A stretch of 64,000 bases of DNA from Methanothermococcus thermolithotrophicus DSM 2095 (GCF_946463545.1 NZ_OX296583.1:1364001-1428000), one strand, 5' to 3'. Shown: positions 1,949-25,098, counted from the first letter of the stretch. Made by a program: numbers and translations. Notes: a model not told the origin generated them from the sequence alone.

Positions 1949-1981
1949 TGTGTATATACTACACTGTGTATATGTTACACA
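1949..1981 (-). promoter_or_regulatory. Tandem TGTGTA-N5-TACACA operator at the fwdDB promoter
   Basis: Two abutting 17-bp palindromes occur: 1965-1981 is a perfect TGTGTA-N5-TACACA, and 1949-1965 matches except for its last base. The TATA box for fwdD is at 1989-1997 (TATATAAAA on the plus strand, read on the minus strand). The operators therefore lie between the TATA box and the ribosome binding site, a position expected for repression. Confidence 0.75.
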
Positions 1982-2027
1982 CCAATAATATATAAAATTT
2001 TCCATATGGCATAATGTAGAAAGATAT

Positions 2028-2540
2028 TTATTCCAGATATTTAACCAACTTTGAAAGATAGACTATCCAGTCATCATAGGACATATTTGGATAGGATAAG
2101 TCAGCATTTGGATGCATAAATTTACATAATGTAAGTGTTTTTATATGCGGCGCAAAATTTTTTAAGGTAGAAAGCCCCTGAGAGCCAATATAATAAGGTA
2201 CGCCTATAAAACATATTAAATCATAATTTTCTCTACCTTCAAAACCTTTCCAAGTTGGATCCTTTAAATGATTTATGAGCTCCACTGCTCCCATAATATA
2301 TTGGGGTTTAAAATTTAATTTTGAAAGTGTAAGATTGGAACCTCCTGTCGACACAACGGTCATATGTTTTAATTTTGCTATTTTTATGGCATATTCTGCT
2401 ATTTCCTCTGGGAGTACATTTAATAACGAACCCATAACAAACATGGGATTTTTAGATTTTTTTATTGTTAATGCTGCTATTTTTGGAGAACAAAGCATTG
2501 CCTGATTTGGAGATGTAAATGCAGGATTCCAGGCAGACAT
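2028..2540 (-). CDS. cdhB: CO dehydrogenase/acetyl-CoA synthase epsilon subunit
   Basis: The protein matches the small subunit that associates with CdhA in the archaeal CODH/ACS complex, which makes acetyl-CoA from CO2, a methyl group and CoA. The start chosen is ATG 2540, preceded by GGTGATAGC, giving 170 residues (MSAWNPAFTSPNQ...), the usual family length; an upstream extension to 2576 would run into the operator. Family-like segments include KSKNPMFVMGSLL near residue 30 and ICFIGVPYYIGSQGLSTLK near residue 120. It is transcribed divergently from cdhA, and both promoters share one operator at 2567-2583. The beta, gamma and delta subunit genes are not in the window. Confidence 0.85.
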   Translation of the reverse strand: MSAWNPAFTSPNQAMLCSPKIAALTIKKSKNPMFVMGSLLNVLPEEIAEYAIKIAKLKHMTVVSTGGSNLTLSKLNFKPQYIMGAVELINHLKDPTWKGFEGRENYDLICFIGVPYYIGSQGLSTLKNFAPHIKTLTLCKFMHPNADLSYPNMSYDDWIVYLSKLVKYLE

Positions 2541-2566
2541 GCTATCACCACAATATTTATATATTA

Positions 2567-2583
2567 TGTGTATCAATTACACA
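2567..2583. promoter_or_regulatory. Shared TGTGTA-N5-TACACA operator between cdhB and cdhA
   Basis: A perfect palindrome with spacer TCAAT. The TATA box for cdhA (TTTATATAT, 2556-2564) lies on its left and that for cdhB (TATATAAT, 2584-2591, read on the minus strand) on its right. One site is thus placed to control both divergent genes, each with the same TATA-then-operator order seen at the other promoters. Confidence 0.78.
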
Positions 2584-2623
2584 TATATAATGATTAATAA
2601 TGATAGTATTTAAAGGTGATGGT

Positions 2624-4945
2624 GTGTTTCAGCTTGATGAATATAAAAGTAGGAATTTTTCAATTAAAGGATTAAAAATGGATTTTAAGAAAATAAATTT
2701 TGATACAGGGCAGGCAAATGCAGATTCTCCACCATCTGATAAAAAAAAGGTTCATATAGATTATTCAAAACTCAGGGACTGGGATTTTAAGTTATTGTCT
2801 CATTTTAGGCCATTTTATGCTCCATTATGTAATTTATGTTGTCTATGCACCTATGGGAAATGTGATTTATCCAAAAATAAAAAAGGAGCATGCGGTATTA
2901 ATTTAGAAAAACAGCAGGCAAGAATTGTATTATTGGCATGTTGTATTGGGGCATCCACCCATGCAGCTCATGCTAGACATATTGTTGATCACATATTGGA
3001 AGAAAATCCAAATTTAAAAATAGATTATGGAAATGCCATAGATATTGTTGCACCCTTATCCACCACCATTACAGGAATCACTCCAAAAACTGTTGAGGAT
3101 TTAGATAAAATATTAGTATATATTGAGAAGGAAATAACAAACCTGCTGGCAGCCACCCATACAGGTCAGGAGGGAAACCATTTGGATTTTGAATCAAAAG
3201 CACTCCATGCCGGCATGATTGATAATTTAGCATTGGAAATAGCCGAATTGGCCCAGATAAATTATTATAATTTACATAAGGGGGAGCCTAACACACCTTT
3301 AGTAGATATTGGATTAGGTGTAATAGATAATCAGAAGCCGATAATATTGTGCATTGGACATAATATAGCACCAGGGGTAGAAATTATCGACTATATTGAA
3401 GATAATGGTTTGTCTGATGATATAGAAGTATGCGGATTATGTTGCACAGCAATAGATATCAGCAGATACTCAAAAGAGTCAAAAATAGTTGGTCCAATAT
3501 CAAGACAGTTGATGTTTATAAAATCAGGCGTTCCAGATGTGGTGGTTTTGGATGAACAGTGTATAAGGGCAGATATTTTAGAACTTTGTGCTGAAAAAAA
3601 TATTCCTGTCATTGCAACAAGTGATAAATGCTCCTTAGGATTGCCCGACATGAGCTCTAAGGATGAAAATATTATAATTCATGAGCTCCTTTCAAAAAAA
3701 TATGATGGAGCTCTTATAAAAGACATGGAGAAAGTTGGAAAGGTTGCTGTTAATCTTGCATTATTATTGAAGAAAGACCGCAAACATGAACATAAACATA
3801 AAAATAACGAGAATGACGACCTGGACATTTTTGAACTTATAAATAAATGTACAGAATGTGAATGGTGTAATAGGGTATGTCCTGCCATGCTTCCAATAAA
3901 AGAGGCCTTCATCCAAGGTAAAGCTGGAAATTTATCTTTATTTTCAGAACTTCACGGTAGATGCGTAGGATGCGGAAAATGTATGGAAGAATGCGAGAGA
4001 AACCTTCCGATAATAGACATTATAAGAATAGCTTCAAAGGATAAAATATCATCTGAAAGATATAAAATTAGGGCAGGTAGGGGACCTATCCAAGATGTTG
4101 AAATAAGGAAAGTAGGAGCTCCGATTGTGTTAGGGGACATTCCAGGAGTCATTGCACTTGCAGGCTGTTCCAACTACTATAATGGGGAAAATGAAATAGC
4201 CCTTATTGCAGAAGAGTTTTTAAAAAGAGGGTATATTGTAGTAGCTGCAGGATGTGCTGCCATGGACATAGGACTTTATAGGGATAATGATGGAAAAACA
4301 CTTTATGAAAAATATCCTGGAGACTTTGACAAGGGAGGGGTTCTAAATGTGGGCCCCTGTGTTGCAAATGCTCATGCTATAGGTAGTGCCATCAAAATAG
4401 CAAATATATTTGCAAAAGTGCCCCTTGAAAATAATTTTGAAAATGTAGCAGATTATATATTAAATAGAGTTGGAGCATGTGTAATTGCATGGGGTGCTAT
4501 GAGTCAGAAGGCGGCGGCAATTGCTACTGGTGCAAATAGATGGGGTATTCCTGCAGTAGTTGGACCTCATGCATCTAAATATAGAAGATTATATTTGGGA
4601 GAATCGAAATTAAGGGAAATTACTGATAAACGAACAAATGAAAAAGTGGAGTGTGAGCCTGCCCCACTGCATTTAATATACTGTGCTGAGAGCATGAATG
4701 AGTGCATGTCAATGGTGGCAAAATTATGTATGAGACCTAATGATACTCCAAAAGGAAGATTAATAAAACTAACCCATTATGTGGATATATATAAAAAATA
4801 TCATGGTTGTCTACCTGATGATTTACACCTATACATTAGAAGTGAACGAGAAATCCCTTATGAGGATAAAAAAGAAATATTAAGATTCCTTAGAGAAAAA
4901 GGATGGAATCCAAGAAAGGCCCCAAATGAACCTTCAATATTGTAG
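2624..4945 (+). CDS. cdhA: CO dehydrogenase/acetyl-CoA synthase alpha subunit
   Basis: This is the CO dehydrogenase subunit of archaeal CODH/ACS and carries the Ni-Fe-S C cluster that reduces CO2 to CO. The N-terminal cysteine motif CNLCCLCTYGKC supports the B and D clusters. Two ferredoxin-type motifs lie mid-protein (CTECEWCNRVCP and CVGCGKCMEEC), as is typical of the archaeal alpha subunit. The frame is open from ATG 2600, but GTG 2624 follows a good ribosome binding site (AAAGGTGAT, 2612-2620), so I prefer GTG 2624 (773 residues). ATG 2600 has no such site and would leave a leader of only about a dozen bases. The stop overlaps the spacer to the next gene, suggesting co-transcription with the Sua5-type gene. 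Confidence 0.93.
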   Translation: MFQLDEYKSRNFSIKGLKMDFKKINFDTGQANADSPPSDKKKVHIDYSKLRDWDFKLLSHFRPFYAPLCNLCCLCTYGKCDLSKNKKGACGINLEKQQARIVLLACCIGASTHAAHARHIVDHILEENPNLKIDYGNAIDIVAPLSTTITGITPKTVEDLDKILVYIEKEITNLLAATHTGQEGNHLDFESKALHAGMIDNLALEIAELAQINYYNLHKGEPNTPLVDIGLGVIDNQKPIILCIGHNIAPGVEIIDYIEDNGLSDDIEVCGLCCTAIDISRYSKESKIVGPISRQLMFIKSGVPDVVVLDEQCIRADILELCAEKNIPVIATSDKCSLGLPDMSSKDENIIIHELLSKKYDGALIKDMEKVGKVAVNLALLLKKDRKHEHKHKNNENDDLDIFELINKCTECEWCNRVCPAMLPIKEAFIQGKAGNLSLFSELHGRCVGCGKCMEECERNLPIIDIIRIASKDKISSERYKIRAGRGPIQDVEIRKVGAPIVLGDIPGVIALAGCSNYYNGENEIALIAEEFLKRGYIVVAAGCAAMDIGLYRDNDGKTLYEKYPGDFDKGGVLNVGPCVANAHAIGSAIKIANIFAKVPLENNFENVADYILNRVGACVIAWGAMSQKAAAIATGANRWGIPAVVGPHASKYRRLYLGESKLREITDKRTNEKVECEPAPLHLIYCAESMNECMSMVAKLCMRPNDTPKGRLIKLTHYVDIYKKYHGCLPDDLHLYIRSEREIPYEDKKEILRFLREKGWNPRKAPNEPSIL

Positions 4946-4952
4946 TGAGATT

Positions 4953-5948: not shown

Positions 5949-6431
5949 TTAATCTAACTCGCTTCTCTTGTCTTTAATTATTTTTAAAAATATTGCATTT
6001 TTTGGACATAACTCTTGACATAACTCACATCCACAACATTTATTTTTGTCAATATGAATTATATTATCATCAATATTTATCGCCTTTGTTGGACACACAT
6101 CCATACATATTTTGCATAAATTACACTCATTGGAAATGGCCACGTCAACATCTATATTATCAGAAATAAGTGTCTCCGTAATTGTATTTATAATGTCGTC
6201 ATCATTACAGACGGTTTTAATAAAAAGTACCGCATCCCTTGGATAAAACTTTTCAGCAGTAACTTTTGCACATTTAACAGCTTCTTTTGCAGGTATCCTG
6301 CCGGCTAAATAATGAGTAATTACAGTTCTATCTACTTTAAGTAATTTTGCAATTTCTTCATGCGTTAAACCTTTTTCCCTAAGTTTTTTTGCAGTGAGTG
6401 CTCTTAAACCTGCTAATATATGTTGAGTCAT
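5949..6431 (-). CDS. HTH transcriptional regulator fused to a 2x[4Fe-4S] ferredoxin domain
   Basis: The N-terminal ~75 residues contain a helix-turn-helix (GLTHEEIAKLLKVDRTVITH, about residues 20-39). The C-terminal half has two ferredoxin motifs, CNLCKICMDVCPTKAI and CCGCELCQELCPKNAI. The architecture suggests a DNA-binding protein that senses redox state, iron-sulfur status or a ligand through its clusters. ATG 6431 follows GGTGGTATC and gives 160 residues; the longer frame to 6458 is less likely. It sits alone between cdhA-sua5 and the kor operon, inside the set of genes sharing the TGTGTA operator, which makes it a candidate regulator of them. Its own promoter lacks the palindrome. The assignment as regulator of that set is inference only. 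Confidence 0.8.
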   Translation of the reverse strand: MTQHILAGLRALTAKKLREKGLTHEEIAKLLKVDRTVITHYLAGRIPAKEAVKCAKVTAEKFYPRDAVLFIKTVCNDDDIINTITETLISDNIDVDVAISNECNLCKICMDVCPTKAINIDDNIIHIDKNKCCGCELCQELCPKNAIFLKIIKDKRSELD

Positions 6432-6584
6432 GATACCACCATAAAAATATACAAACATTAAATTCCATTAAATAAATTCCATTAAATATAAAATACAATA
6501 TATTTGAAGAATATTAGTTTAATGACTTCTACCAATATATAAAACACTATAAAGTTCTAACCAGATTAACAACTGTGTTTTAAA

Positions 6585-6780
6585 CTATGATATCAGATCA
6601 TACCAATAAATAGTTTCATTTCTAACTTTTAGTTTGGTCTTGTCAATTACTATTAGCTTCTTATTCTTCTTAGACATGTCTAAAACTGATTCGTGACTTG
6701 CCTTCCCAACTGGGATAGAATAAGCATGTCTTTTAGCTATAGACTCAAATAGTATAAAAGATCGGTTAGAATCTAATCTC
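6585..6780 (-). pseudogene. Remnant of a DDE-type transposase
   Basis: On the minus strand an open stretch of about 60 codons without a start ends at a TAG (6587-6585). It reads LDSNRSFILFESIAKRHAY and later LIVIDKTKLKVRNETIYWYD. The pattern hydrophobic-D-x-T-x-x-K-V followed by an aromatic-rich strand resembles the first catalytic Asp region of IS6-like archaeal transposases. No start codon, downstream catalytic residues or terminal repeats were found. It is a fragment at best, and the family assignment is tentative. The rest of the 6432-6933 gap holds only AT-rich DNA with a short direct repeat (ATTCCATTAAAT) near 6460-6485. Confidence 0.4.
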
Positions 6781-6933
6781 TATTAGTATCTTATTTCACT
6801 TAAAGAGCTTTTTCTCTTTGATTTGTTCCTTTATCATACCTATTATGAGCTCATATTTTTTTATGGATCAGATATTAAAACTTATCGATATTCCCTATAT
6901 TCGTATATATATCTACTTCTTAGAAAATAAAAG

Positions 6934-7542
6934 TTATTTAATAAATTCTCTATATCCCAAATTCAACTCTTTATTTACTTTCACAACATCTCCTGGAACC
7001 TTTTTATACCATTCTGGAATATCGGGAAGCTTGTTAAAATCTGTTAAAATAGTTCCATTCGGCAAAAATGCTTTTATTATCCCATCTGAATCCTTATATA
7101 TGGAAGTATTTGGGGGGATCCATTTATCATTCGGTATTTTTAAATCGCCCCCTACTCCATCTACAACAGAGTTATGTCCCACTATTGTATTATCTCCAAT
7201 TTCAGCTCCAAATACAACTGAATTAAACCCAATAAATGCATTATCTCCAATTTTTGCAGGACCATGAATTACCGTGGAATGAGTGATTGAAGCTTCCTTG
7301 CCAACAACTACCGACGTATTTCTAAGACAGTGTATCACAACCATATCTTGAATATTCGCCCCTTCTTTTATTAATATACCTTTAGTTGGAGGTTCATCAC
7401 ACCTTATAACAGCGTTTGGACCAATGTAAACATTTTTTTGTATGGCAACGTCTCCTATAATCACTGCACTTTTATCAATAAATACGTTTTTATCTATGTT
7501 TGGGGTTTTTCCTTCAATATTGGGAAGTATGTTTTTTTCCAT
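6934..7542 (-). CDS. Gamma-class carbonic anhydrase-like protein, cytoplasmic
   Basis: A left-handed beta-helix protein of the gamma carbonic anhydrase family, predicted to interconvert CO2 and bicarbonate. Hexapeptide repeats run through most of its 202 residues. The three zinc-ligand histidines of the Cam family are recognisable in VIHCLR and in SITHSTVIHGPAKIG. There is no signal peptide. The frame is open from GTG 7551, but ATG 7542 follows GAGTGAT and is preferred. It is the last gene of the kor operon, about 5 bp after korC, which places a carbonic anhydrase with 2-oxoglutarate synthase, a CO2-fixing enzyme. It lacks the acidic loop of the classical Cam, as do CamH-type proteins. Confidence 0.8.
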   Translation of the reverse strand: MEKNILPNIEGKTPNIDKNVFIDKSAVIIGDVAIQKNVYIGPNAVIRCDEPPTKGILIKEGANIQDMVVIHCLRNTSVVVGKEASITHSTVIHGPAKIGDNAFIGFNSVVFGAEIGDNTIVGHNSVVDGVGGDLKIPNDKWIPPNTSIYKDSDGIIKAFLPNGTILTDFNKLPDIPEWYKKVPGDVVKVNKELNLGYREFIK

Positions 7543-7547
7543 AAATA

Positions 7548-8090
7548 TCACTCTTTTATATTATGTCCTAATTCAAATCCTTTTTCGAGGGCTTTTAGGT
7601 TTAATTCATTAAATTTTGATGGAACTGCATCAACTACCGCATTTTTTAAAGATTCTTTTGATATTACATTCGTAATACTTACTAACGCCCCAAGCATTAC
7701 AACATTGGCAACTATTTTATTTCCAAGATTATAAGCGGTTTTTGTGGCAGGAACTGGATATATTTCTATATCATCTCTATTGGGATGATTATTCATCATA
7801 TCAGGATCGTAAATAAGGATTTTTCCAGAGCTCAAATCCTTTGTATAGGTGTCCAAAGATTCTTGGGACATTGCAACCAATACGTCTAAATTTCTGACCT
7901 TTGGGTAGTCTTTTGGATTATCTGATATTACCACTTCTGCACGGGATATACCCCCCCTTGCCTCTGGACCTATTGACTGAGTTTGAAAGGCATAACTATT
8001 TTCATACAGTGCAGCAGCTCTCCCCAATATTATGCCTGACAAAAGTATGCCCTGCCCCCCAAATCCGGCAAACCTTATTTCTTTTCTCAT
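7548..8090 (-). CDS. korC: 2-oxoglutarate:ferredoxin oxidoreductase gamma subunit
   Basis: This is the gamma subunit of the enzyme that reductively carboxylates succinyl-CoA to 2-oxoglutarate with ferredoxin. The N-terminus carries FAGFGGQGILLSG, followed by QSIGPEARGG, both typical of the gamma family. ATG 8090 follows GGTGGTATT and gives 180 residues; the longer frame to 8147 overlaps korB. It is fourth in the order korD-korA-korB-korC-carbonic anhydrase, transcribed from the operator-bearing promoter at 10341-10365. Confidence 0.9.
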   Translation of the reverse strand: MRKEIRFAGFGGQGILLSGIILGRAAALYENSYAFQTQSIGPEARGGISRAEVVISDNPKDYPKVRNLDVLVAMSQESLDTYTKDLSSGKILIYDPDMMNNHPNRDDIEIYPVPATKTAYNLGNKIVANVVMLGALVSITNVISKESLKNAVVDAVPSKFNELNLKALEKGFELGHNIKE

Positions 8091-8106
8091 AATACCACCA
8101 TAAGCT

Positions 8107-8970
8107 TTAATCTTCCTTAGATGCTTTTGATATTGAAGGATATTCAATTAAACATTCGTTTTTTATTATTTTATATAGTTCATCGGTAAATTCAGGCTGT
8201 TTTTTATCCACAAATTCCCCAATCACTAGTTTTCCATCTAATGCTTCTTTTCCATCTTTTGAAAGTTTTTTTACTTTATTTATGTGTATGGTGTTTGATT
8301 TAATCAATTTCATGAGCTCCGTGTTGGATTTTATATTGTTCATCCTTCCATAGTATGTATAACACTGAGACATCACTTCAATAAATGCCAATCCCTTAGT
8401 TTCTATACCTTTTTTAATGGATTTTGACAGTTGGAATGGGTGAGAAGTGGTCCATCTTGCAACATATGAAGCCCCGGCAGCTTCAGCCAATTTGCATAAA
8501 TCAAAGGGCCTTTCAGGATTTCCATAAGGTGAAGTGGTAGCTCTTTTTCCAGTGGGTGTTGTTGGAGAAACTTGCCCTCCTGTCATTCCGTATATATGAT
8601 TATTTACACAAATAATTGTAATATCGATGTTCCTTCTACATGCATGTATGAAGTGATTTCCTCCGATGGCTGCACAATCTCCATCACCGGTGAATGTAAT
8701 TACATTTAAATCAGGATTATATGATTTAACTCCTGTTGCAAATGCAATAGGTCTTCCATGGGTTGTATGCAGTGAATCACAGTTAAAGTATCCTGGAATC
8801 CTTGAAGAACAGCCTATACCTGATGTCATTATAGTGTTATCCATATCAATATTTAAATCATCAAATGCCTTGCATGCACAATTTATAATTGTTCCGATAC
8901 CACATCCCGAACAAAACATATGCGGCAATCGATCTTTTCTTAAATATTTTAAAGCAAAATGTTGTTCCAT
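8107..8970 (-). CDS. korB: 2-oxoglutarate:ferredoxin oxidoreductase beta subunit (TPP-binding)
   Basis: This is the thiamine pyrophosphate-binding subunit. The cysteine motif MFCSGCGIG near residue 25 and the TPP/Mg motif beginning GDGDCAAIGGNH near residue 90 are present, followed by NNHIYGMTGGQ. ATG 8970 lies behind a strong GGAGGT ribosome binding site and gives 287 residues. It starts 4 bp after korA stops, showing tight coupling. The HTTHGRP segment and the neighbouring gene order argue for Kor rather than the related branched-chain enzymes. Confidence 0.92.
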   Translation of the reverse strand: MEQHFALKYLRKDRLPHMFCSGCGIGTIINCACKAFDDLNIDMDNTIMTSGIGCSSRIPGYFNCDSLHTTHGRPIAFATGVKSYNPDLNVITFTGDGDCAAIGGNHFIHACRRNIDITIICVNNHIYGMTGGQVSPTTPTGKRATTSPYGNPERPFDLCKLAEAAGASYVARWTTSHPFQLSKSIKKGIETKGLAFIEVMSQCYTYYGRMNNIKSNTELMKLIKSNTIHINKVKKLSKDGKEALDGKLVIGEFVDKKQPEFTDELYKIIKNECLIEYPSISKASKED

Positions 8971-8974
8971 AATT

Positions 8975-10120
8975 TTACCTCCCTGTTGCCATATCAATAA
9001 TTTCCTCTGGGAAATGTATTTCTCCGCCCGTTTTTGGAAGCAATACTACATCACAAAATCCTTTTGATGCTCTCTCCACTTCCCTCGCGATTTGACCAAA
9101 ATTCATTTCCGGCACAATAATTTTTTCTGTTTTTTTGGCAATTTCTAATATCTTTTTATCTGGGAATGGCCATACAACCTCCAATCTAAAATATCCTGCA
9201 CTAACTCCCTTTTCACGGAGCTCAGTTACAGCAGTTTCCGCAGACCTTGAAGGAGCTCCATAGGATACCACCACAACATCCCCGCAATCATCCAAATATT
9301 TTTCCTCAAATGAATATATCTCATTGGCATGATTCAATATCTTTTTATTCAATCTCTCAACTAATTTATGATGTTCATCGGGTTTTGATGCTGCATCGGG
9401 ATATCCCTTTTCATTATGGGTTAATCCAGTTATATGGGACTTATACCCTTTACCAAATACTGGCATTTTAGGAATTAAATCTTCTTCTGGGTAAAATGGA
9501 AGTTTATTGAGCCCCTTTTTTCTTTCAACTATCTCAATTTCTTCTGAAATAGTTAGCTTTTCCCGCATGTGTCCTACTATTTCATCACTCATTACAAAGG
9601 CTGGAACCCTATATTTTTCAGAAAGATTAAATGCCTTTATTGTAAATTCAAAACACTCTTGAACTGAGGACGGAGCTAATGCTATTACTTGGTAATCCCC
9701 ATGGGAACCCCATTTTGCCTGCATCATATCACTTTGAGAGGCCATGGTAGGCTGACCTGTTGAAGGAGCTCCCCTCTGCACATCCACTATAACAAAAGGG
9801 GTTTCTGTCATAGCCCCATATCCTATGTGTTCCTGCATCAAACTAAAACCAGGTCCACTTGTGGCAGTCATTGCCTTTGCACCCGCCCATGATGCCCCAA
9901 TAACCGCTGCTAATGCCCCTATTTCGTCTTCCATCTGAATGAATGCTTTTCCAATTTGAGGCAAACGCTTTGCCATTCTTTCGGCAACCTCAGAGGATGG
10001 TGTGATAGGATAACCTGCAAAAAAATCGCATCCTACGGCTATGGCACCCTCAGCACATGCTTCATTACCTTGCATAAAATAACTCCCTGGTTTAAGTTTT
10101 CCGTTGTTGTCAATTGTCAT
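8975..10120 (-). CDS. korA: 2-oxoglutarate:ferredoxin oxidoreductase alpha subunit
   Basis: The alpha subunit supplies the pyrimidine-binding fold that completes the TPP site. The motif CDFFAGYPITPSSEVAE near residue 30, ATSGPGFSLMQE and QRGAPSTGQPT near residue 120 are characteristic of 2-oxoacid oxidoreductase alpha subunits of the 2-oxoglutarate type. The 381 residues start with MTIDNNGKLKPGSYFMQGNE. It overlaps the stop of korD by 4 bp, so translation is probably coupled. Confidence 0.93.
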   Translation of the reverse strand: MTIDNNGKLKPGSYFMQGNEACAEGAIAVGCDFFAGYPITPSSEVAERMAKRLPQIGKAFIQMEDEIGALAAVIGASWAGAKAMTATSGPGFSLMQEHIGYGAMTETPFVIVDVQRGAPSTGQPTMASQSDMMQAKWGSHGDYQVIALAPSSVQECFEFTIKAFNLSEKYRVPAFVMSDEIVGHMREKLTISEEIEIVERKKGLNKLPFYPEEDLIPKMPVFGKGYKSHITGLTHNEKGYPDAASKPDEHHKLVERLNKKILNHANEIYSFEEKYLDDCGDVVVVSYGAPSRSAETAVTELREKGVSAGYFRLEVVWPFPDKKILEIAKKTEKIIVPEMNFGQIAREVERASKGFCDVVLLPKTGGEIHFPEEIIDMATGR

Positions 10121-10314
10121 TTTTTCACCGCAATTGATTGGTCAGGACATATTATTTCACAAATGCCGCAGTAATTACAATCTTCAATATTTCCAACTGT
10201 TGATGGATAAATTCCTTTTTTGTTTAATCCCTTAGAGATCCTAAATACTTTTTTTGGACAGGATTCCACACAAATATAACATCCTTTGCATAATTCTTCG
10301 TCGATGCTTATCAT
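10117..10314 (-). CDS. korD: 2-oxoglutarate:ferredoxin oxidoreductase delta (ferredoxin) subunit
   Basis: A 65-residue 2x[4Fe-4S] ferredoxin with motifs CKGCYICVESCPKKVF and CNYCGICEIICPDQSI. It carries electrons between the TPP centre and external ferredoxin. It is the first gene of korDABC; the ribosome binding site is GGTGATGGT. Its promoter has a TATA box at 10358-10365 followed directly by the operator. Confidence 0.92.
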   Translation of the reverse strand: MISIDEELCKGCYICVESCPKKVFRISKGLNKKGIYPSTVGNIEDCNYCGICEIICPDQSIAVKK

Positions 10315-10340: not shown

Positions 10341-10357
10341 TGTGTATATACTACACA
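10341..10357 (-). promoter_or_regulatory. TGTGTA-N5-TACACA operator at the korDABC promoter
   Basis: A perfect palindrome with spacer TATAC. It touches the TATA box (10358-10365, read on the minus strand) and lies 27 bp upstream of the korD start. The remaining 10366-10571 gap to the end of fwdF contains no gene; two GAGCTC hexamers occur there. Confidence 0.78.
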
Positions 10358-10571: not shown

Positions 10572-11576
10572 CTATTTTTTAAGTTCTCTCCTAATTTCTA
10601 TGGCATCAACAGGACATGCATGGGTACATGCTCCACATAAAACACATACATCAGAATTCAGTATAACCTTTGGAATCTTTTGAGCAGGTTCCTCCATTTT
10701 TGGAATATCTAATGCATTACATGGACATATTGCAACACATGCACCACAGACATTGCAAATATCGTTATGAATAATTAATTCGCCTTCAAATGGTTTTTCA
10801 ACCTCAATGGCATCAGTAGGACAGGTTATTTCACATCGTCCGCAATATACGCAATATTTTTTATCTATATTTGTATATCCTGTGATTGTTTCATATAATA
10901 CTGGTTTTTCGATTTTTTTATCCCATGGGCACTTATAACAAATTGCCTCAATGGCATTATGTGGGCAGGCTATTTCACAGACTTTGCAAAATACACAGGC
11001 GTCGGTATCTACCACAATGTCTTTATATGGTTTTAAAGTAAGGGGACTAATCTCATTAGGTATAAGATTAATAGCATCAGCAGGACAATATTCCGCACAT
11101 ATTCCACAATATACACATTTATCTTTATCTATGGATATTTCACCTATTACGAGGGTTTTTCGCTCAGGCATTTCCCTAACTACATCAATAGCTTCACGGG
11201 GACAGGCTAATTCACACTGTTTACATAAAATACATTCCTCTTGAGTTACAGAAATGTTGTTAGGTAAGGCATTCTTCTCCATAATTTTTACCAAATCCTG
11301 ACCATACGCATCCAAAGAAAATGCACCAAAAGGACAGGCAAAGGAACATACTCCACATAATACACATTGATTTTCATCGATGTCCAACTTTGGAGCTCTC
11401 ACATTACCCTTTGCAATTGCACCCAATGGACCCATGTGTATGGCATTAACAGGACAAATATCATGGCAAATTCCGCATCCGACGCATATATCATCATTCC
11501 ATGAAAGTTTTCTTTTTTTATCTGTGTTAATGCTATAAATTTTAAATCCATCATGATATGCTTCTTTTATATGCAC
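10572..11576 (-). CDS. fwdF: Polyferredoxin of formylmethanofuran dehydrogenase (FwdF type)
   Basis: The 334 residues contain eight CxxCxxCxxxCP motifs, for example CVGCGICHDICP, CVLCGVCSFACP, CILCKQCELACP and CVYCGRCEITCP, plus an isolated CYKCP. Eight clusters in about 330-350 residues fits FwdF, which wires electrons into the Fwd complex. GTG 11576 is used as start behind CGAGGGAT. It stands alone, separated from fwdDB by the kor and cdh genes, but shares the operator motif in a leader about 110 nt upstream. An Ehb- or Vhu-associated polyferredoxin is the alternative; I favour FwdF from cluster number and context. Confidence 0.78.
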   Translation of the reverse strand: MHIKEAYHDGFKIYSINTDKKRKLSWNDDICVGCGICHDICPVNAIHMGPLGAIAKGNVRAPKLDIDENQCVLCGVCSFACPFGAFSLDAYGQDLVKIMEKNALPNNISVTQEECILCKQCELACPREAIDVVREMPERKTLVIGEISIDKDKCVYCGICAEYCPADAINLIPNEISPLTLKPYKDIVVDTDACVFCKVCEIACPHNAIEAICYKCPWDKKIEKPVLYETITGYTNIDKKYCVYCGRCEITCPTDAIEVEKPFEGELIIHNDICNVCGACVAICPCNALDIPKMEEPAQKIPKVILNSDVCVLCGACTHACPVDAIEIRRELKK

Positions 11577-11684: not shown

Positions 11685-11701
11685 CGTGTACATATTACAC
11701 A
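11685..11701 (-). promoter_or_regulatory. TGTGTA-N5-TACACA operator (one mismatch) at the fwdF promoter
   Basis: The sequence is CGTGTA-CATAT-TACACA, one base away from the consensus. A TATA box (TATATAAAT on the plus strand, 11709-11717, read on the minus strand) lies 7 bp upstream, so the site would overlap the transcription start. The mRNA leader to the GTG start is about 110 nt. Confidence 0.65.
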
Positions 11702-12186: not shown

Positions 12187-12203
12187 TGTGTAAATACTAC
12201 ACA
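12187..12203 (+). promoter_or_regulatory. TGTGTA-N5-TACACA operator upstream of the mini-ferredoxin and purE
   Basis: A perfect palindrome with spacer AATAC. The TATA box TTATATAT lies at 12173-12180, six bases upstream, so the same TATA-operator order is used here on the plus strand. Confidence 0.75.
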
Positions 12204-12222: not shown

Positions 12223-12324
12223 ATGGTGATTCTTAATCTTGAAGAATTCAATGTGAAAAATGTGTTGAATTGTATATTCTGCATGAGCTGCGTAGGTTCA
12301 TGCCCCTATTTGGCGTTACATTAA
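12223..12324 (+). CDS. 33-residue protein with one [4Fe-4S] cluster motif
   Basis: ATG 12223 is preceded by GGTGAAAGA and directly follows the operator-bearing promoter. The product has one ferredoxin half-motif, CIFCMSCVGSCPYLAL, near its C-terminus and no partner motif. It stops 42 bp before the purE start, so the two are probably co-transcribed. It may be a functional single-cluster microprotein, or the truncated relic of a ferredoxin subunit left behind an active promoter. I recognise no family. Confidence 0.5.
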   Translation: MVILNLEEFNVKNVLNCIFCMSCVGSCPYLALH

Positions 12325-12366
12325 ATGAAACTAAATAATAAAAAAATTAAAAAAGTTGGTGATATT

Positions 12367-13422: not shown

Positions 13423-13429
13423 AAATAAA

Positions 13430-14667: not shown

Positions 14668-14682
14668 TATATCACCTCTTAA

Positions 14683-14716
14683 TGTGTAGTAAGTACACAT
14701 GTGTATATAATACACA
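14683..14716 (-). promoter_or_regulatory. Two abutting TGTGTA-N5-TACACA operators at the cam promoter
   Basis: 14683-14699 (spacer GTAAG) and 14700-14716 (spacer TATAA) are both perfect, exactly 17 bp apart, as in the fwdDB promoter. The TATA box is at 14722-14730 (read on the minus strand). The operators end 16 bp before the TTG start. Confidence 0.8.
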
Positions 14717-15099: not shown

Positions 15100-15828
15100 T
15101 TATAAACATCCAATTCTTTCAGCTACAACTTCGTATTTTCCAACAACATCTCCCATGTCCTTTCTATAAACATCCTTATCAAGAACATCTTTTGTTTCTT
15201 TATCCCATAATCTCATGGTGTCTGGGCTAATTTCGTCTGCAACTACTAATTTTCCATCCTTTGTTCTTCCAATCTCGATTTTGAAATCTACAAGGATTAT
15301 GCCCTTTTCATCAAAGAATTTTTTCAAGGTTTCATTTACTTTCAATGCTAACTCTTTTAATTCTTTTAATTCCTCTTCTGTTGCAAGGTTTAAGGCAAGA
15401 GCTATGTCATCGTTTAACATTGGGTCTCCGTAGTCGTCGTTTTTATAATCAAACTGTACAATAGGGGTTGCTAATTCTTTACCTTCTTCAAATGGGTATT
15501 TTCTACATAAGCTCCCTGCGGCAATATTTCTAACTATAACCTCAATTGGTATGATTTCTACATTTTTAGCAATCATGTAGATTGGTTCAATGTATTCTAT
15601 GAAATGTGTAGGAACACCATTTTCATTTAAGAGCTCGAACAATTTTGAAGATATTAAGGCATTTAGGTGGCCTTTTCCTTTTTTCACATCGTGCTTTTCC
15701 CCATTTCCTGCAGTAATATCGTCTCTGAATTCAATTAAAACCTTGTCATCATCTATTTCATATATGGATTTTGCCTTTCCACTGTATAAAGGTTCTTTTT
15801 TTAATATTTCGTTAATATTCATGTCCAT
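15100..15828 (-). CDS. purC: SAICAR synthetase
   Basis: PurC ligates aspartate to CAIR, the product of PurE, in purine synthesis. The 242 residues begin with the substrate motif LYSGKAKSIYEI and contain FRDDITAGNGEK, VRNIAAGSL and DFKIEIGR, all conserved. ATG 15828 follows AAAGGTGATACA. It follows PurE in the pathway but is on the opposite strand and has no TGTGTA operator; its promoter lies in the short gap to 15870. Confidence 0.95.
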   Translation of the reverse strand: MDMNINEILKKEPLYSGKAKSIYEIDDDKVLIEFRDDITAGNGEKHDVKKGKGHLNALISSKLFELLNENGVPTHFIEYIEPIYMIAKNVEIIPIEVIVRNIAAGSLCRKYPFEEGKELATPIVQFDYKNDDYGDPMLNDDIALALNLATEEELKELKELALKVNETLKKFFDEKGIILVDFKIEIGRTKDGKLVVADEISPDTMRLWDKETKDVLDKDVYRKDMGDVVGKYEVVAERIGCL

Positions 15829-17696: not shown

Positions 17697-17831
17697 ACTT
17701 CCCCTCATTACTGTCAATATAAGGAATTGCAAAAATTTAAGTAACTAACTGCATGGTTACGACGACAATACAAACTCCACGGGCAATATTACCATATTTT
17801 GATATTTCGCGATATAATAAGCAATATTTAT

Positions 17832-20800
17832 TTAATTTATACTATATACTTCAATATCTCCGTCTTTCATATTTTTAATGGCATTAAATGCTGCCTTTGC
17901 TCCATCAGTTGTGGTAATGTATGGTATTTTATAATCTATTGCTGTTCTTTTTATCAGATATTCGTCCTCTTTTGATGCACTTCCCTTTGGAGTATTTATA
18001 ATCAAATCTATCTTTCTAGATTTTATTAAATCAATTATATTTGGTCTCCCTTCGCTTATTTTGAATACTTTTTCTACTGCTATTCCGTTATTGGTTAATA
18101 CATTATAGGTTCCTTCTGTTGCCACTATCTTAAATCCTAAATCTTCAAAATTTTTTGCTATTGGTATTAATTTGTTTTTATCATCATCATTTACACTTAT
18201 AAATACAGTTCCTGCTAATGGGAGCTCCATACCAGCAGCCAGTTGTGCCTTATAATATGCCAGTCCAAAATCCTTATCTATGCCCATAACTTCTCCTGTG
18301 GATTTCATTTCAGGACATAGGGAGATCTCTGCATTTGGCCATTTGCCGTATGAAAATACAGCCTCCTTGACGCATACTTTATCAGGTATTTTTTCCACAA
18401 GGTTTAAATCTTTTAATTTTTTGCCTACCATGATTTTTGCTGCAATCTTTGCAAGGGATATGCCAATAGCTTTACTTAAATAAGGTATTGTCCTACTTGC
18501 CCTTGGATTTGCCTCCAAAACATATACTGTATCATCTTTTATGGCATACTGGATATTTATCAAACCTTTGATTTTTAACCTCAACGCCAATCTTTTTGTG
18601 TAGTCCTTTATGGTGTCTATAATGTCTTTTGAAAGTGTTTGGGGCGGTATTACACAGGCACTATCTCCACTATGTATGCCTGCCTCTTCTATATGTTCCA
18701 TTATCCCTCCAATAAATACATCTTCACCATCGCAAACTGCATCTACATCCACTTCAATAGCATCTTCCAAAAACTTATCAATTAGGATTGGGAGCTCCGG
18801 TGAAATCATTACTGCCTCGTTCATGTAATTTTTTAATTCCTCCCTATTATACACTATATGCATGGCTCTTCCACCGAGCACATAGGAAGGTCTAACCAAT
18901 ACAGGATATCCGATTTTTTCTGCCACTTCTAAGGCTGTTTCCTCATCAAATACTATTCCATTTGGCGGTTGTGGTATTTTTAATTCATTCAATATATTTG
19001 AGAATTTCTCCCTATCCTCAACTAAATCAATGGATTCTTTTGGAGTCCCAATAATTATATCGTCAGGAATGTATTTCGATAGATTAAGGGGAGTTTGTCC
19101 CCCAACTTGAACTACAACGCCGTAGGGGTTTTCTTTTTCGATTATATTTAAAACATCCTCGGGATATAACGGCTCGAAGTAAAGTCTATCTGCTAAATCA
19201 AAATCGGTGCTAACTGTTTCAGGGTTGCAATTTACCATTATGGTTTCAAAACCTTCTTCCTTTAATGATTTTATCGTATGGACACAGCAATAATCAAATT
19301 CTATACCTTGACCTATTCTGTTTGGTCCCGAGCCCAATACTATGATTTTATTACTTTTGTTATTGTTAGAACTCTTGCCAATATTGTTATTGTTATTATT
19401 ATTTCCACCTATTTCTAGTTCATCTTCCTCGTCATTATAGGTTGAATAGTAGTAAGGGGTTTTTGCCTCAAATTCTGCACCGCAGGTATCGACCATTTTA
19501 TATTTGGGGAATATGTTATATTCTTTTCTTAGATTTCTTATTTCTTTTTCTGATTTTCCCGAGATGTCGGCTATTATTTTATCGGACAGTCCATATTTTT
19601 TTAACTTTAAAAGGGTTTCATAGTCAAGATTTTTTGCACCACTTTTATCACTTTTTATAGAGCTCTCCAGTTCTATTATATTTTTCATCTTATTCAGAAA
19701 CCAAGGGTCTATTTTAGTTATTTTATAAACTTCATCAACATCCTTTATTTTTAAAATTTCAAATAAATCATATATTCTACCTATCCCGCCTTTTGGATTT
19801 GTATAATTTAATCTCTTCTCATCAAATTGATATTTAGTATTGTAAAGGTCCAAACTTCTCAATGCCTTTAAAAATGCCTCTTCAAAAGTCCTACCAATCG
19901 CCATAACCTCCCCAACACTTTTCATCTGGGTTGTTAAGGTGTCATCCACGCCAGGAAGTTTATCAAAATCCCATCTTGGAATCTTTACAACAACATAATC
20001 TATTGTAGGTTCAAATGCTGCGGAAGTCCCAGTTATTTCGTTTTTAATCTCATCAAGGGTTAAACCAACAGCCAATTTTGCGGCAACCTTCGCAATTGGA
20101 TAACCTGTTGCCTTACTTGCAAGTGCGGAGCTCCTGCTTACCCTTGGGTTCATTTCAATGGCCACAATTCTCCCATTTTCTGGATTAACTGCAAATTGAA
20201 TATTACTTCCGCCGGTCTCAACCCCAATTTCTCTAATGATTTTTATGGAATAGTCTCTTAATAATTGATATTCTTCATCACTGAGTGTTTGGGTTGGAGC
20301 TACTGTAATACTGTCTCCTGTATGTATCCCCATAGGGTCAATATTTTCAATGGTGCATACTATAATTACATTGTCGTTTAAATCCCTAATTACTTCATAT
20401 TCATATTCCTTCCAACCAATTATGCTCTCTTCTATCAAGATTTGATTTTTAAGGCTATATTCTAATCCCTTTGAAGCTATTGATTTTAACTCTTCTGGGT
20501 TAAATGCTACACCTCCTCCGGTTCCCCCAAGGGTAAATGCAGGTCTAACTACTACAGGGTAGCCTAATTTTTCTGCAATACTCAGGGATTCTTCCACAGT
20601 ATATGCAACTTCACTTTTTAACACATCCACTCCAACTTTTTTACAGGCTTCTTTAAAGAGCTCCCTATCTTCCGCTTTTCTAATGGCATCTAACTTTGCC
20701 CCAATCAGTTCAACATCATGTTTATCAAGAATTCCTTTATCCGCCAGTTCAACTGCCAAGTTTAGTGCAGTCTGTCCTCCAAGGGTGGGCAGTATTGCAT

Positions 20801-21050
20801 CAGGCTTTTCCTTCTCAATAATTTTTTCAACGACCTCAGGCACCAACGGTTCTATATATATTTTGTCTGCCATCTCAGGGTCAGTCATTATTGTTGCAGG
20901 ATTTGAATTTACAAGGACTATTTCATACCCCAGTTCTTTTAAGGCTTTACATGCCTGGGAACCAGAATAATCAAATTCACACGCCTGCCCAACAATTATT
21001 GGACCTGCACCTATAATCAGTATTTTTTTAATATCTTCTCTTTTTGGCAT
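17832..21050 (-). CDS. carB: Carbamoyl-phosphate synthase large subunit, single chain
   Basis: CarB makes carbamoyl phosphate from bicarbonate, ammonia and ATP for arginine and pyrimidine synthesis. The 1072 residues contain both ATP-grasp halves: [17 protein letters not shown] at the start and the equivalent [17 protein letters not shown] near residue 575, with an MGS-like allosteric domain at the C-terminus. Between the halves (about residues 547-566; 19352-19410) lies a low-complexity Asn-rich linker ([14 protein letters not shown]). M. jannaschii encodes the halves as separate genes. ATG 21050 follows GGTGGTTTT. carA lies 12 bp upstream, so carAB is an operon. Confidence 0.96.
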
Positions 21051-21062
21051 AAAACCACCAAA

Positions 21063-22130
21063 TCAATATTGTTTAATAATCTTCTCAAAATCGTCAAAGA
21101 ACCCATATGTGTCATGGGGACCAGGATGAGCCTCTGGATGATATTGAACACCAACGATCGGTAATTCCTTATGTTTTATTCCCTCAATGCTGTTATCGTT
21201 TAAATTAATCTGAGTAATATTCATACAATCGGGTAAATCAGAAACTGCAAAGTTGTGATTTTGGGAAGTGATATATACCCTTCCATTTTCCAAATCCTTA
21301 ATGGGCTGGTTTAATCCATGATGGCCAAATTTTAATTTTCTCGTTTTAGCACCAAGTGCCAGCGATATTATTTGATGTCCTAGACATATTCCATAGATTG
21401 GAACTTTGCCTATAAGGTTTTTCACAGTATTTATTGTTTCTTTTAGAATTGAAGGATCTCCCGGCCCATTTGAGATAAACACCCCATTTGGATTATATTC
21501 CAATATATCTTTATAATTTGAATCATATGGAACAATAACCAAATTTACGTTCTTTTTAATTAGCTGATTTACTATGGATTTTTTAACTCCACAGTCAATT
21601 AAAACCACGGTTTTTTTACCATTTCCCAATATTATTGGTTTATCCGTACATACCTCAGGAACTAAATTTAATTCTGAAATATTTTTATGAGATTTAACCT
21701 TTTTCAATAATTCCTCATTATCAATATCCCCAACTCCTATGGCGGCCTTCATAGTCCCATAGGTCCTTATTTTTTTTGTTAATTTTCTTGTGTCAATATC
21801 GGATATTCCACATATATTATATTCTTTTAAAAATTCATCAATGCTTTTTTTAGATTTATGGTGGCTAGGAACTGAACAATTTTCTTTTACAACAAAACCT
21901 TCCACTTTTATTCCATCGGATTCGAACCATTCTTCATTTACACCATAGTTTCCAATTAACGGATATGTCATGGTTAATATTTGACCTTTATAAGATGGGT
22001 CAGTCAATGCTTCTACGTATCCCGTCATACCTGTACAGAATATAATTTCCCCAATCGCAATACCCTCTGCACCAAATCCATGACCCTGCATAACAGTCCC
22101 ATCTTCCAAAATTAATACGGCTTTTGTCAT
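21063..22130 (-). CDS. carA: Carbamoyl-phosphate synthase small (glutaminase) subunit
   Basis: CarA hydrolyses glutamine and channels ammonia to CarB. The class I amidotransferase nucleophile is in GICLGHQI (about residue 250) and the catalytic His in VQYHPEAHPGP near the C-terminus. ATG 22130 follows AAGGGATAGT and gives 355 residues; the frame to 22163 has no ribosome binding site. The gap to the end of porB is only about 64 bp, so carAB may be transcribed from the por promoter. Confidence 0.95.
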   Translation of the reverse strand: MTKAVLILEDGTVMQGHGFGAEGIAIGEIIFCTGMTGYVEALTDPSYKGQILTMTYPLIGNYGVNEEWFESDGIKVEGFVVKENCSVPSHHKSKKSIDEFLKEYNICGISDIDTRKLTKKIRTYGTMKAAIGVGDIDNEELLKKVKSHKNISELNLVPEVCTDKPIILGNGKKTVVLIDCGVKKSIVNQLIKKNVNLVIVPYDSNYKDILEYNPNGVFISNGPGDPSILKETINTVKNLIGKVPIYGICLGHQIISLALGAKTRKLKFGHHGLNQPIKDLENGRVYITSQNHNFAVSDLPDCMNITQINLNDNSIEGIKHKELPIVGVQYHPEAHPGPHDTYGFFDDFEKIIKQY

Positions 22131-22193
22131 ACTATCCCTTCTATTATGCATGCTTATGAGCATGCATATTCTATTGTTTAATGTATCAGATTG

Positions 22194-23087
22194 TTAAATT
22201 AGGATTTTTTTATTATTGTGCTCTAAAAATGCCTCCCAGCTTTCATCCACACTTTCTTGTATGTGCTCAATTTCAATCTCTGAAAGGTGTCTAAATCTCT
22301 TCTGGATGCTTAAATAATCTTTTACCGGTATTTTTTTATTTTTATAGTTCATCTTAAATTCTTTATTTTCAATTTCGTAAAGCGCCCACAATCCAGATTG
22401 AACAGCCAATTTTGCGATTTTTATTCCATCTTTACTGTGAAATCCCCACCCAGTGGGGCATGGGGCATGCACATGAATATATTTGAATCCATCAAAGGAT
22501 AATGCCTTTTCAACCTTTTTTAGGAAATCAATGGGATAACCTACTGACGCAGTGGCAACATAGGGAGCTCCGTGGGCAGCCACAATAAATGGCATGTTCT
22601 TTTTTTCTTCGGGCTTTCCAATACTGTATTTTCCAGCAGGGCTGGTAGTTGTTGATGCCCCATAAGGGGTAGTCCCGCTCCTCTGTTTTCCAGTGTTTGC
22701 GTATGCTTCGTTATCGGTACAGATGTATAGTATATTGTGTTCGCGTTCTACTGCTCCCGATAATGCCTGAAAACCAATATCTGCGGTTCCACCATCTCCA
22801 GCAAATACTACGATATTTGTCTTTTTACCCAGTCTTTTCATGGCTTTTTCTATGCCGCTTGCAACTGCTGCAGCATTTTCAAATGCAACATGTATAAATG
22901 GCACCCTCCAGGCAGTTTCAGGATATATTGTAGTAATGACTTCCATACATCCAGTTGGTGCAATGACAATTGTGTCCTCTCCACATATTTTTAAAGCCAA
23001 TCTTAAGGCAAGAAGTTCTGGACATCCAGCACAGGCTCTTGCTCCTGGTGCTAAATATTCTTCTTTTGGAATATCTGTGATTTTCAT
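22194..23087 (-). CDS. porB: Pyruvate:ferredoxin oxidoreductase beta subunit (TPP-binding)
   Basis: PorB binds thiamine pyrophosphate in the enzyme that carboxylates acetyl-CoA to pyruvate. The cysteine motif [12 protein letters not shown] near residue 20 and the TPP motif [15 protein letters not shown] near residue 97 are present; [14 protein letters not shown] follows. The 297 residues and the ATGA overlap with porA support the start at 23087. It completes the order porC-porD-porA-porB. The associated PorE and PorF proteins of Methanococcus are not next to it. Confidence 0.95.
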
Positions 23088-24235
23088 AGATTAACACCTA
23101 TCCATGTAATTTCTTTTGGATTGTTATCCTCTAATAATCTAAATATGGTTCTAAAATCGTCATAAGTTACATCCCTACCGCCCAATCCAACAATAAAGTT
23201 TTTTACAATAGGTTTACTATCCAAATCATAAAGGCATGATTTAACTTCATGGGCCACAATTCCACCGGACCCAAAGCTTATATTTTTATCAATTACTCCT
23301 ATTTTTTCAAACCTTGAAAGTATTTTTTTCAGTTCTTCTTTTGGGAATGGCCTAAATACCTTTAATTTAATCAATCCTACTTTTTTTCCCTCTTTCCTTA
23401 GTTCATCTACAATAAATCGTGCAGTGGTGGTTATTGCCCCCATAGTTAAAATAACAATTTCTGCGTCTTCGGTCCGATATTCTTCAATGAATTCATACTT
23501 CCTTCCAGTGAGCTCTTCAAATTCTTTAAAAGTTTTTTCCATAACAATTCTAGCATTCTCCATGGCTTGTTCCTGTTGATATTTCAGCTCCATGTAGATA
23601 TTTGGACCTCCAACTGGTCCCAATGTGTAAGGGCTTTCAGGGTCTAATTTATATTCTAAATCCAATTCTGGAAGAAAACTTTCAATTGTTTCATTATCCA
23701 GTGGATTTACTGGTTCGACAGTATGTGATAATATAAATCCATCGAGAGATACCATTGCAGGCAATAATACATTTTTATTTTCACATATTTTGTATGCCAT
23801 TATCACTGAATCATGAGCCTCTTGATTACTCTCACAAAACATCTGAATTGCCCCACTGTCCCTTTGAGCAAGGGCATCTATATGGTCTGACCATATCGAT
23901 ATTGGAGCAGAATATGACCTGTTAGTAATTGCTGTAACAATGGGTAACCTAAGTCCCGAAGCACATGGGATGAGCTCGTGAAATAATGCTACACCAGGTC
24001 CGCAAGATGCGGTAAATGTTCTAACCCCGCAGGCACTAGCCCCAATTACTGCACTCAATGCACTGTGTTCGGATTCTACTGGAATATACTCGCAATCCAT
24101 CTCACCGTCGGCAATAAATTTTGCTATTATCTCAACAATTTCACTTTGGGGGGTAATTGGATATGCTGCCACCACATCGACACTTGAATTTTTCACCGCA
24201 GTGGCAACTGCCATATGTCCGGTCATTCCTTGCAT
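23084..24235 (-). CDS. porA: Pyruvate:ferredoxin oxidoreductase alpha subunit
   Basis: This is the alpha subunit, 383 residues, with [15 protein letters not shown] near residue 22, the [12 protein letters not shown] segment and [14 protein letters not shown] near residue 125, typical of PorA. The start ATG 24235 lies behind GAGGAGGACTAAA, one of the strongest ribosome binding sites in the window. It supplies acetyl-CoA-derived pyruvate for biosynthesis, directly downstream of CODH/ACS in the pathway. Confidence 0.95.
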
Positions 24236-24236
24236 T

Positions 24237-24506
24237 TTAGTCCTCCTCTATCATTTTTATAGCATTTTTTGGACATTCAACTTCGCAAATTCCACATCCC
24301 TTGCAAAAATCGTAGTCAATTGTTATTTTATCATCCTCAACAATTACCACTCCATCGGGGCAGTAGAGCCAGCAGAAAAGACATGAATTACAGTTTTCAT
24401 AGTCAATAATTGGTTTATAGGTCCTCCAACCTCCAGTTTTGTTTTCTACGCTTGTTCCAGGTGGAAGCACACCACCTATGATTATATTATTATAATCTAA
24501 TGTCAT
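24237..24506 (-). CDS. porD: Pyruvate:ferredoxin oxidoreductase delta (ferredoxin) subunit
   Basis: An 89-residue ferredoxin subunit with two motifs, CNSCLFCWLYCPDGVV and CKGCGICEVECPKNAI, and the N-terminal GGWRTYKPIID segment characteristic of PorD. Its ATG overlaps the porC stop by 4 bp, and porA begins one base after its stop codon. Confidence 0.93.
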   Translation of the reverse strand: MTLDYNNIIIGGVLPPGTSVENKTGGWRTYKPIIDYENCNSCLFCWLYCPDGVVIVEDDKITIDYDFCKGCGICEVECPKNAIKMIEED

Positions 24507-25042
24507 ACGACCACCTTTTTCATCTCATCATATGCCCTTTTAACGGCCAATATATTTTTATCAGCAAGTTTTTTTGGAAATCTTTCTGATATGATTGAAA
24601 TAACTGAATCCAATGAGATATTGTCATATATTGCCAAAAATGCTCCAATCATGACGGTATTTGTAATTGGAACCCCCAGAGTTTCAATGGCAAGTTTAGT
24701 GGCATCTATTGTATAGGTATTTTGGCCCTCAAACTCGATAGGCTCCTTTGTATTCACAATTATGGTTCCATCATCCAGTCCTTGGACAACATCCACAGTA
24801 GGGTCATTTATAACCGTTGGGTCTAGAACCATCACATAATTTGGATTGTATATTTGAGTTCTTGTTTTAATTTCACTGTCGCTTATTCTAACATAGGAAG
24901 TTACAGGAGCTCCCCTCTTTTCAGGGCCAAAAAATGGAAAAGCTTGACAAAATTTTCCCTCTTTTAAAGAAGCTATGGCAAGAATTTCTGCGGCGGTAAC
25001 TGCCCCTTGACCTCCCCTGCCATGAAATCTTATTTCATCCAT
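24503..25042 (-). CDS. porC: Pyruvate:ferredoxin oxidoreductase gamma subunit
   Basis: The 179-residue gamma subunit begins MDEIRFHGRGGQGAVTAAE, the family signature, followed by FPFFGPEKRGAPV. ATG 25042 follows GGTGAAAAAC; the longer frame to 25099 runs through the operator. It is the first gene of porCDAB, and possibly of a longer porCDAB-carAB unit. Confidence 0.94.
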   Translation of the reverse strand: MDEIRFHGRGGQGAVTAAEILAIASLKEGKFCQAFPFFGPEKRGAPVTSYVRISDSEIKTRTQIYNPNYVMVLDPTVINDPTVDVVQGLDDGTIIVNTKEPIEFEGQNTYTIDATKLAIETLGVPITNTVMIGAFLAIYDNISLDSVISIISERFPKKLADKNILAVKRAYDEMKKVVV

Positions 25043-25081
25043 GTTTTTCACCCTGCATATGTCATTATTAATTATTATATA

Positions 25082-25098
25082 TGTGTATTTAATACACA
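25082..25098 (-). promoter_or_regulatory. TGTGTA-N5-TACACA operator at the porCDAB promoter
   Basis: A perfect palindrome with spacer TTTAA. The TATA box is at 25102-25110 (TATATAAAT on the plus strand, read on the minus strand). The site is 40 bp upstream of the porC start. Confidence 0.78.

Follow-up and report, generated by a model that had tools for sequence, protein, structure and literature searches.

Results

Second copies of CO2-handling genes in one island

The window analysed here is a 64-kb stretch of the genome of Methanothermococcus thermolithotrophicus DSM 2095 (order Methanococcales; 1,706,496 bp; designated G000). Its relevant genes are given below by position and strand, with the basis of each assignment in brackets.

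178-1479, minus strand: fwdB, formylmethanofuran dehydrogenase subunit B, no in-frame TGA (NCBIfam TIGR03129)
1508-1909, minus strand: fwdD (Pfam Molydop_binding)
2028-2540, minus strand: cdhB, CODH/ACS epsilon subunit (Pfam CO_dh)
2600-4945, plus strand: cdhA, second copy (ordinary copy at C1:728355, 57% identical)
5949-6431, minus strand: fwdH2, proposed regulator (Pfam HTH_3 and Fer4; copy in G004; tree; structural model)
6934-7551, minus strand: gamma-type carbonic anhydrase-like protein, end of the kor operon (domain and family matches)
7548-10314, minus strand: korDABC, 2-oxoacid:ferredoxin oxidoreductase (ORF reading; korA 90% identical in G004)
10572-11576, minus strand: fwdF-like polyferredoxin (domain match)
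12223-12324, plus strand: 33-aa mini-ferredoxin (ORF reading)
12325-13422, plus strand: purE, two AIR carboxylase-like halves (ORF reading)
13888-14669, minus strand: lipoprotein carbonic anhydrase (domain and family matches, protein search)
17832-22163, minus strand: carB (fused) and carA, second copies (ORF reading, paralog comparison)
22194-25042, minus strand: porCDAB, second copy (ordinary porA at C1:410324, 47% identical)

The carB and carA genes are probably cotranscribed with por. Among the island genes tested, cdhA, porA, fwdB and carB proved to be second copies, all having distant paralogs that lack the palindrome described below. Identity to the island copy is 57% for the ordinary cdhA, 47% for porA, 58-59% for two other fwdB genes and about 61% for a split carB. 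The island fwdB is one of an adjacent, 93% identical pair, lying at 178-1479 of the window and at C1:1362733-1364031 (mostly outside the window). The latter copy has an in-frame TGA, probably a selenocysteine codon, whereas the former has none; judging from their reading frames, the two are likely Sec and Cys isozymes encoded side by side.

The island also contains a gene for LarB, the CO2-using nickel-pincer cofactor carboxylase (NF033503; L045:16210-17022), near which only a two-mismatch site is found (L045:17322). Beyond por, at 27236-28934 of the window, a solute-binding lipoprotein and an FmdE-like protein, both recognized by eye from translations, are encoded without the motif.

A palindrome adjoining the TATA boxes of island promoters

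The first-pass annotation of this DNA had described a 17-bp palindrome, TGTGTA-N5-TACACA, at seven promoters of CO2-fixing genes. Pattern matching confirmed the places and the gene assignments: the window holds seven exact copies (at 1965, 2567, 10341, 12187, 14683, 14700 and 25082) and two copies with one mismatch (at 1949 and 11685), against 0.00 and 0.10, respectively, expected from shuffled sequence. The sites, to which no strand is assigned, are the following.

1949-1965: operator at the fwdD-fwdB promoter, copy a (one mismatch; pattern match)
1965-1981: operator at the fwdD-fwdB promoter, copy b (exact; pattern match)
2567-2583: operator between cdhB and cdhA (exact; conserved in G004, L046:19016)
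10341-10357: operator at the korDABC-carbonic anhydrase promoter (exact; identical in G004, L047:6162)
11685-11701: operator at the fwdF-like polyferredoxin promoter (one mismatch; pattern match)
12187-12203: operator at the mini-ferredoxin-purE promoter (exact; kept before the G004 purE remnant, L047:6346)
14683-14699: operator at the lipoprotein carbonic anhydrase promoter, proximal (exact; conserved in G004, L046:14300)
14700-14716: operator at the lipoprotein carbonic anhydrase promoter, distal (exact; one mismatch in G004, L046:14283)
25082-25098: operator at the porCDAB(-carAB) promoter (exact; conserved in G004, L046:5861)

No further copy with zero or one mismatch occurs across the 64 kb, as had been claimed; copies with two mismatches at 10621, 11435 and 15493 fall inside ORFs (10572-11576 and 15100-15828). 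At every window promoter 0-9 bp separate the end of a TATA box from the first operator copy downstream of it, in keeping with the earlier description, and a ribosome-binding site and start codon mostly follow within about 45 bp. Between the divergent cdhB and cdhA genes a single operator with a TATA box on either side serves both directions.

Sites elsewhere in the genome

The remainder of G000 was examined through pattern searches, protein searches and selected stretches, with the reversed pattern serving as control in genome scans. The genome contains eight exact sites (control, 0), all within the 36 kb between C1:1353472 and C1:1389098; the probability that random placement would cluster eight sites so tightly is about 1e-11. 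The eighth exact site, outside the window, belongs to an abutting pair preceding an operon in which a small gene of zinc-ribbon-like type is followed by fwdA and fwdC. Sites with one mismatch precede ppcA, encoding the archaeal-type PEP carboxylase (TIGR02751), and tupA, encoding a tungstate transporter (NF041772, matched below its cut-off), where the TATA box is not adjacent to the operator but about 24 bp from it. Thus, the seven promoters initially named are all correct but form part of a larger set that extends past the window to fwdAC, ppcA and tupA.

There are nine other one-mismatch matches in G000. Seven were inspected (all but C1:1483032 and 1585209): five lie inside genes, one at the promoter of a DUF169-like gene and one before an ORF of unknown function. 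Two of the matches in coding sequence, at C1:275307 and C1:575996, are identical because one gene segment is duplicated there, in opposite orientation. A related palindrome reading TGTGTA...TACACA or TGTGTATTG-N-CAATACACA lies between radical-SAM and DUF169-like genes in G000 (C1:947060), G002 and G012, the same sequence being matched in G005 (loci L011, L035, L036 and L037); it is perhaps a separate conserved operator. The single exact matches in G002 and G012 are of this kind and were set aside as unrelated in theme. An exact match in G038 was rejected as lying inside a gene, and an apparent pyc site in G000 (L112) because it is positioned downstream of pycB.

The possibility that the motif is common to the ordinary copies of the enzymes was also dismissed, since none was found within one mismatch at the ordinary cdh, por, fwd, carAB and pyc genes of G000. 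The original statement that the palindrome marks CO2-fixing genes consequently holds for the island's second copies and not for these ordinary genes, and the exact motif is not spread over unrelated promoters of G000 but confined to the island cluster. One cell thus harbours two sets of CO2 enzymes, one with the operator and one without, which amounts to a natural experiment. The rare, promoter-positioned sites mark genes related to CO2, bicarbonate or carboxylation, as proposed at the outset. CO2 or bicarbonate is the only substrate common to Fwd, CODH/ACS, POR, KOR, PEP carboxylase, PurE, CarAB and the carbonic anhydrases; tungstate uptake and the polyferredoxins fit this theme as accessories.

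Conservation of the operators in a second genome

The comparison set comprised about 100 related genomes, including 36 of Methanococcales and 70 of the order of G037 (Methanobacteriales). Outside G000 itself, the lipoprotein carbonic anhydrase and the island regulator have close homologs in just one of the 36 Methanococcales genomes, G004. The operators do not disappear from the same genes in this relative: they are kept at por, at the lipoprotein carbonic anhydrase (two), at cdh, at kor and at a decayed purE. In the last case (L047:6346-6362) the target gene is reduced to a truncated remnant and the intact operator before it is retained. A sixth exact site in G004 is unlinked and lies 319 bp upstream of the start codon of pycB, for pyruvate carboxylase subunit B, so its assignment to this gene is weak; pyruvate carboxylase is perhaps another of the targets sharing CO2 or bicarbonate.

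Between the two genomes, 1 of 72 half-site positions is changed, compared with 8 of 30 spacer positions (Fisher p = 0.0002), as expected for a bound palindrome. This bears on the possibility that one promoter was simply copied by duplication and carries no regulatory meaning, which the abutting copies at the fwdD, fwdA and lipoprotein carbonic anhydrase promoters might suggest. Spacers and flanks vary from site to site, selective retention of the half-sites between genomes is not what such copying predicts, and the same palindrome precedes fwdH in another order (see below); we regard this explanation as hardly credible.

Ten island proteins are 87-93% identical between G000 and G004, whereas their ordinary counterparts and PycB are 62-85% identical, a difference that suggests either that the island was transferred from one lineage to another or that it is more strongly constrained. 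The closest relatives of the island CdhA (66%) and CarB (73%) outside these genomes are found in G025, from another family of Methanococcales (C1:928947 and C1:616256).

An HTH/ferredoxin protein encoded in the island

The island bearing the operators also carries fwdH2, whose product of about 160 aa consists of an N-terminal HTH and a C-terminal 2[4Fe-4S] ferredoxin domain. The HTH scores 24.6 bits with Pfam HTH_3 (cut-off 23), and the ferredoxin domain 44.2 bits with Fer4; the eight cysteines of the latter are invariant in the family alignment. The AlphaFold model is confident (pLDDT 92) and places the HTH helices at residues 2-19, 24-31 and 35-43. A Foldseek search with this model returned nothing with an E-value under 0.001, and its best matches, partial and ferredoxin-like, span the ferredoxin half only. 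FwdH2 is 89% identical to the G004 island copy and, aligned along almost its entire length, 30-38% identical to 14 other proteins.

Homologs were found in every Methanococcales genome searched; a profile search of genome contigs with the family alignment gave 23 loci, no island copy among them. In Methanobacteriales, fwdH is followed by genes for an 8x and then a 2x Fe-S protein, and after these by more fwd genes (H-F-G-D-A-C-B at locus L206). The family was identified as FwdH from synteny with the fwdHFGDACB operon of Methanothermobacter (MTH1553-1559), an order given in a review (PMC3087415). The ordinary fwdH of G000 precedes fwdF-like and fwdD-like genes. The island gene, in contrast, is a solitary gene flanked by cdhA-yrdC on one side and the kor operon on the other; since it does not head a fwd operon, as its ordinary orthologs do, it was filed as a paralog of FwdH rather than as FwdH itself. 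In an unrooted tree, both island copies fall outside the Methanococcales fwdH clade (support 94/99, just under the usual threshold), which includes the ordinary fwdH of both island genomes, G000 and G004. The island and Methanobacteriales copies have in common a full Cx2Cx2Cx3C first cluster and a CCGC second cluster.

The palindrome at fwdH promoters of two orders

A 17-bp palindrome in which 10 or more of the 12 half-site positions match was present at 64 of 67 distinct fwdH promoters, compared with 75 of 2162 control windows. Part of the 67 loci had been fetched by the motif itself and the rest by protein, so that the protein-fetched loci are the unbiased part that matters; these carry TGTKAG-N5-CTMACA or a near form in Methanococcales and TGTGTA-N5-TACACA or a near form in Methanobacteriales. 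The three exceptions are the fwdH of G025, alone among ordinary copies in lacking a palindrome, and the two island fwdH2 copies (L049 and L050), in whose own promoters the best match is 8 of 12.

Exact TGTKAG-N5-CTMACA sites number 0-2 per Methanococcales genome and are often at fwdH. Five of the eight loci inspected were rejected as not being fwdH promoters; four of these five sites lie inside ORFs, L194 being the fifth. In the 70 Methanobacteriales genomes, 62 exact TGTGTA sites were found in 43 genomes (control, 14), and 53 of the 61 inspected (G056 left out) are at promoters of fwdH, of the adjacent mobB(-moaA) or of a polyferredoxin gene. Beyond those at fwdH, this order has exact operators in the divergent promoter region of mobB-moaA and in front of an additional polyferredoxin gene (L229-L275), and these link molybdopterin genes to the fwd operon.

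These sites, together with the one before tupA, could be taken to mean that the motif controls a tungsten or molybdopterin regulon, centred on W-dependent Fwd and tungstate uptake. This is very unlikely, as the products of cdh, por, kor, the carbonic anhydrase genes, purE and ppcA are not W or Mo enzymes. Furthermore, ModE is reported to be missing from Methanococcales (PMC9765008).

Operator type goes with fwdH clade, TGTGTA being found in Methanobacteriales and the island and TGTKAG in Methanococcales; given the tree position and cluster cysteines of the island copies, operator type follows the regulator's clade. The presence of the palindrome, or of a variant with the same geometry, before fwdH, the first gene of fwdHFGDACB, in most of the methanogens covered suggests that FwdH ancestrally probably served to autoregulate formylmethanofuran dehydrogenase. 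The distal site of ordinary fwdH promoters is found on the upstream side of a TATA box, rather than downstream as in the island, and a second site follows some 78 bp farther down, so regulation there may work in a different way.

Discussion

A candidate regulator of the island

Our preferred reading, to which we give a probability of roughly 0.6, is that the palindrome is the operator of the HTH/2[4Fe-4S] FwdH family, and that its use was expanded from fwd autoregulation to repression of the island by FwdH2, relieved at CO2 shortage. A dimer of FwdH2 would bind the operator between the TATA box and the transcription start and so repress the island genes; repression is the most likely mode, as the space between these two elements is taken up by the operator. 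On CO2 shortage the Fe-S domain would lift repression, perhaps through sensing ferredoxin that is over-reduced, and relief would lead to joint production of the alternative Fwd, CODH/ACS, POR, KOR, PEP carboxylase, the carbonic anhydrases and the tungstate transporter.

FwdH2 is the probable owner of the motif, although the ordinary FwdH (FwdH1), also encoded in G000, could bind the island sites. Several points count against the preferred reading: the lack of a palindrome at the promoters of fwdH2 itself, the mismatch at tupA and ppcA, and the 319 bp separating the G004 site from pycB. Likewise, the W-type Fwd of Methanothermobacter is termed 'formed constitutively' in a review (PMC3087415). 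It is conceivable, if unlikely, that the operator and regulon are real and the regulator is some other, unlinked DNA-binding protein, FwdH being an electron-transfer accessory that is first in the fwd operon by chance. FwdH is indeed catalogued among Fwd subunits (PMC3087415), and the bare fwdH2 promoter would fit such an accessory; the HTH, the tracking of FwdH clade by operator type and the fwdH paralog within the operator island would not.

Somewhat less improbable, yet still doubtful, is that FwdH2 is the regulator and responds to ferredoxin redox state or H2 supply instead of CO2, or that it activates instead of repressing. Its sensor domain is ferredoxin-like, Fwd, CODH/ACS, POR and KOR are all ferredoxin-linked, and the distal fwdH site upstream of the TATA box has an activator-like position. 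Carbonic anhydrases, PurE, PEP carboxylase, CarAB and pyruvate carboxylase, however, are independent of ferredoxin and have CO2 or bicarbonate as common substrate, and the island operators between TATA box and start occupy a blocking position. Carrying the FwdH2 reading further, FwdH may be an unrecognised family that senses CO2 through ferredoxin redox, and the island a transferable set of CO2 enzymes placed under a dedicated paralog, in the manner of bacterial low-CO2 regulons; we put this forward tentatively, at less than even odds.

Relation to known systems

Hydrogenotrophic methanogenesis starts with the reduction of CO2 to formylmethanofuran. The present data supply a precise predicted operator for genes of CO2 metabolism, together with a candidate regulator that occurs in two orders of methanogens. 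In the open-licence papers searched, no description was found of an FwdH regulator or of a methanogen CO2 regulon, in agreement with the initial suggestion that this regulon was undescribed, nor of any operator or regulator for CO2 supply in methanogens; FwdH is named there in gene lists only. A regulon with a dedicated operator is of a known kind; what would be new is the regulator family, and the target set, an island of isozymes, is unusual.

The FwdH of Methanothermobacter has the same domain architecture as the family members heading fwdHFGDACB-type operons of Methanobacteriales, with the identical operator in their own promoters, whereas the island FwdH2 belongs to a multi-operon regulon and has no operator in its own promoter. 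In the part of the review consulted, FwdH is listed within the Fwd gene set and no DNA-binding role is stated for it (PMC3087415); its domain content suggests that a gene counted among Fwd subunits encodes a DNA-binding protein. The nearest described system is Tfx (molybdate, Mo-type enzyme), likewise a methanogen DNA-binding protein encoded near a formylmethanofuran dehydrogenase operon and binding downstream of its promoter (PMC3087415). It differs in acting on the Mo-type fmdECB and in being the product of a separate gene, MTH916, not of fwdH (PMC3087415).

Other regulators offer partial parallels in operator placement, in target genes or in the probable sensor. The methanogen regulators NrpR and MsvR bind inverted-repeat operators near the TATA box; their operators and protein folds differ from the FwdH case. 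In autotrophic bacteria, CbbR, CcmR and CmpR coordinate genes for CO2 fixation or acquisition under carbon limitation; they are LysR-type regulators, unrelated to FwdH in sequence and operator. FNR and IscR are HTH proteins with an Fe-S cluster as probable sensor, a single cluster in a dedicated fold, whereas in FwdH the cluster-bearing part is an entire 2[4Fe-4S] ferredoxin domain.
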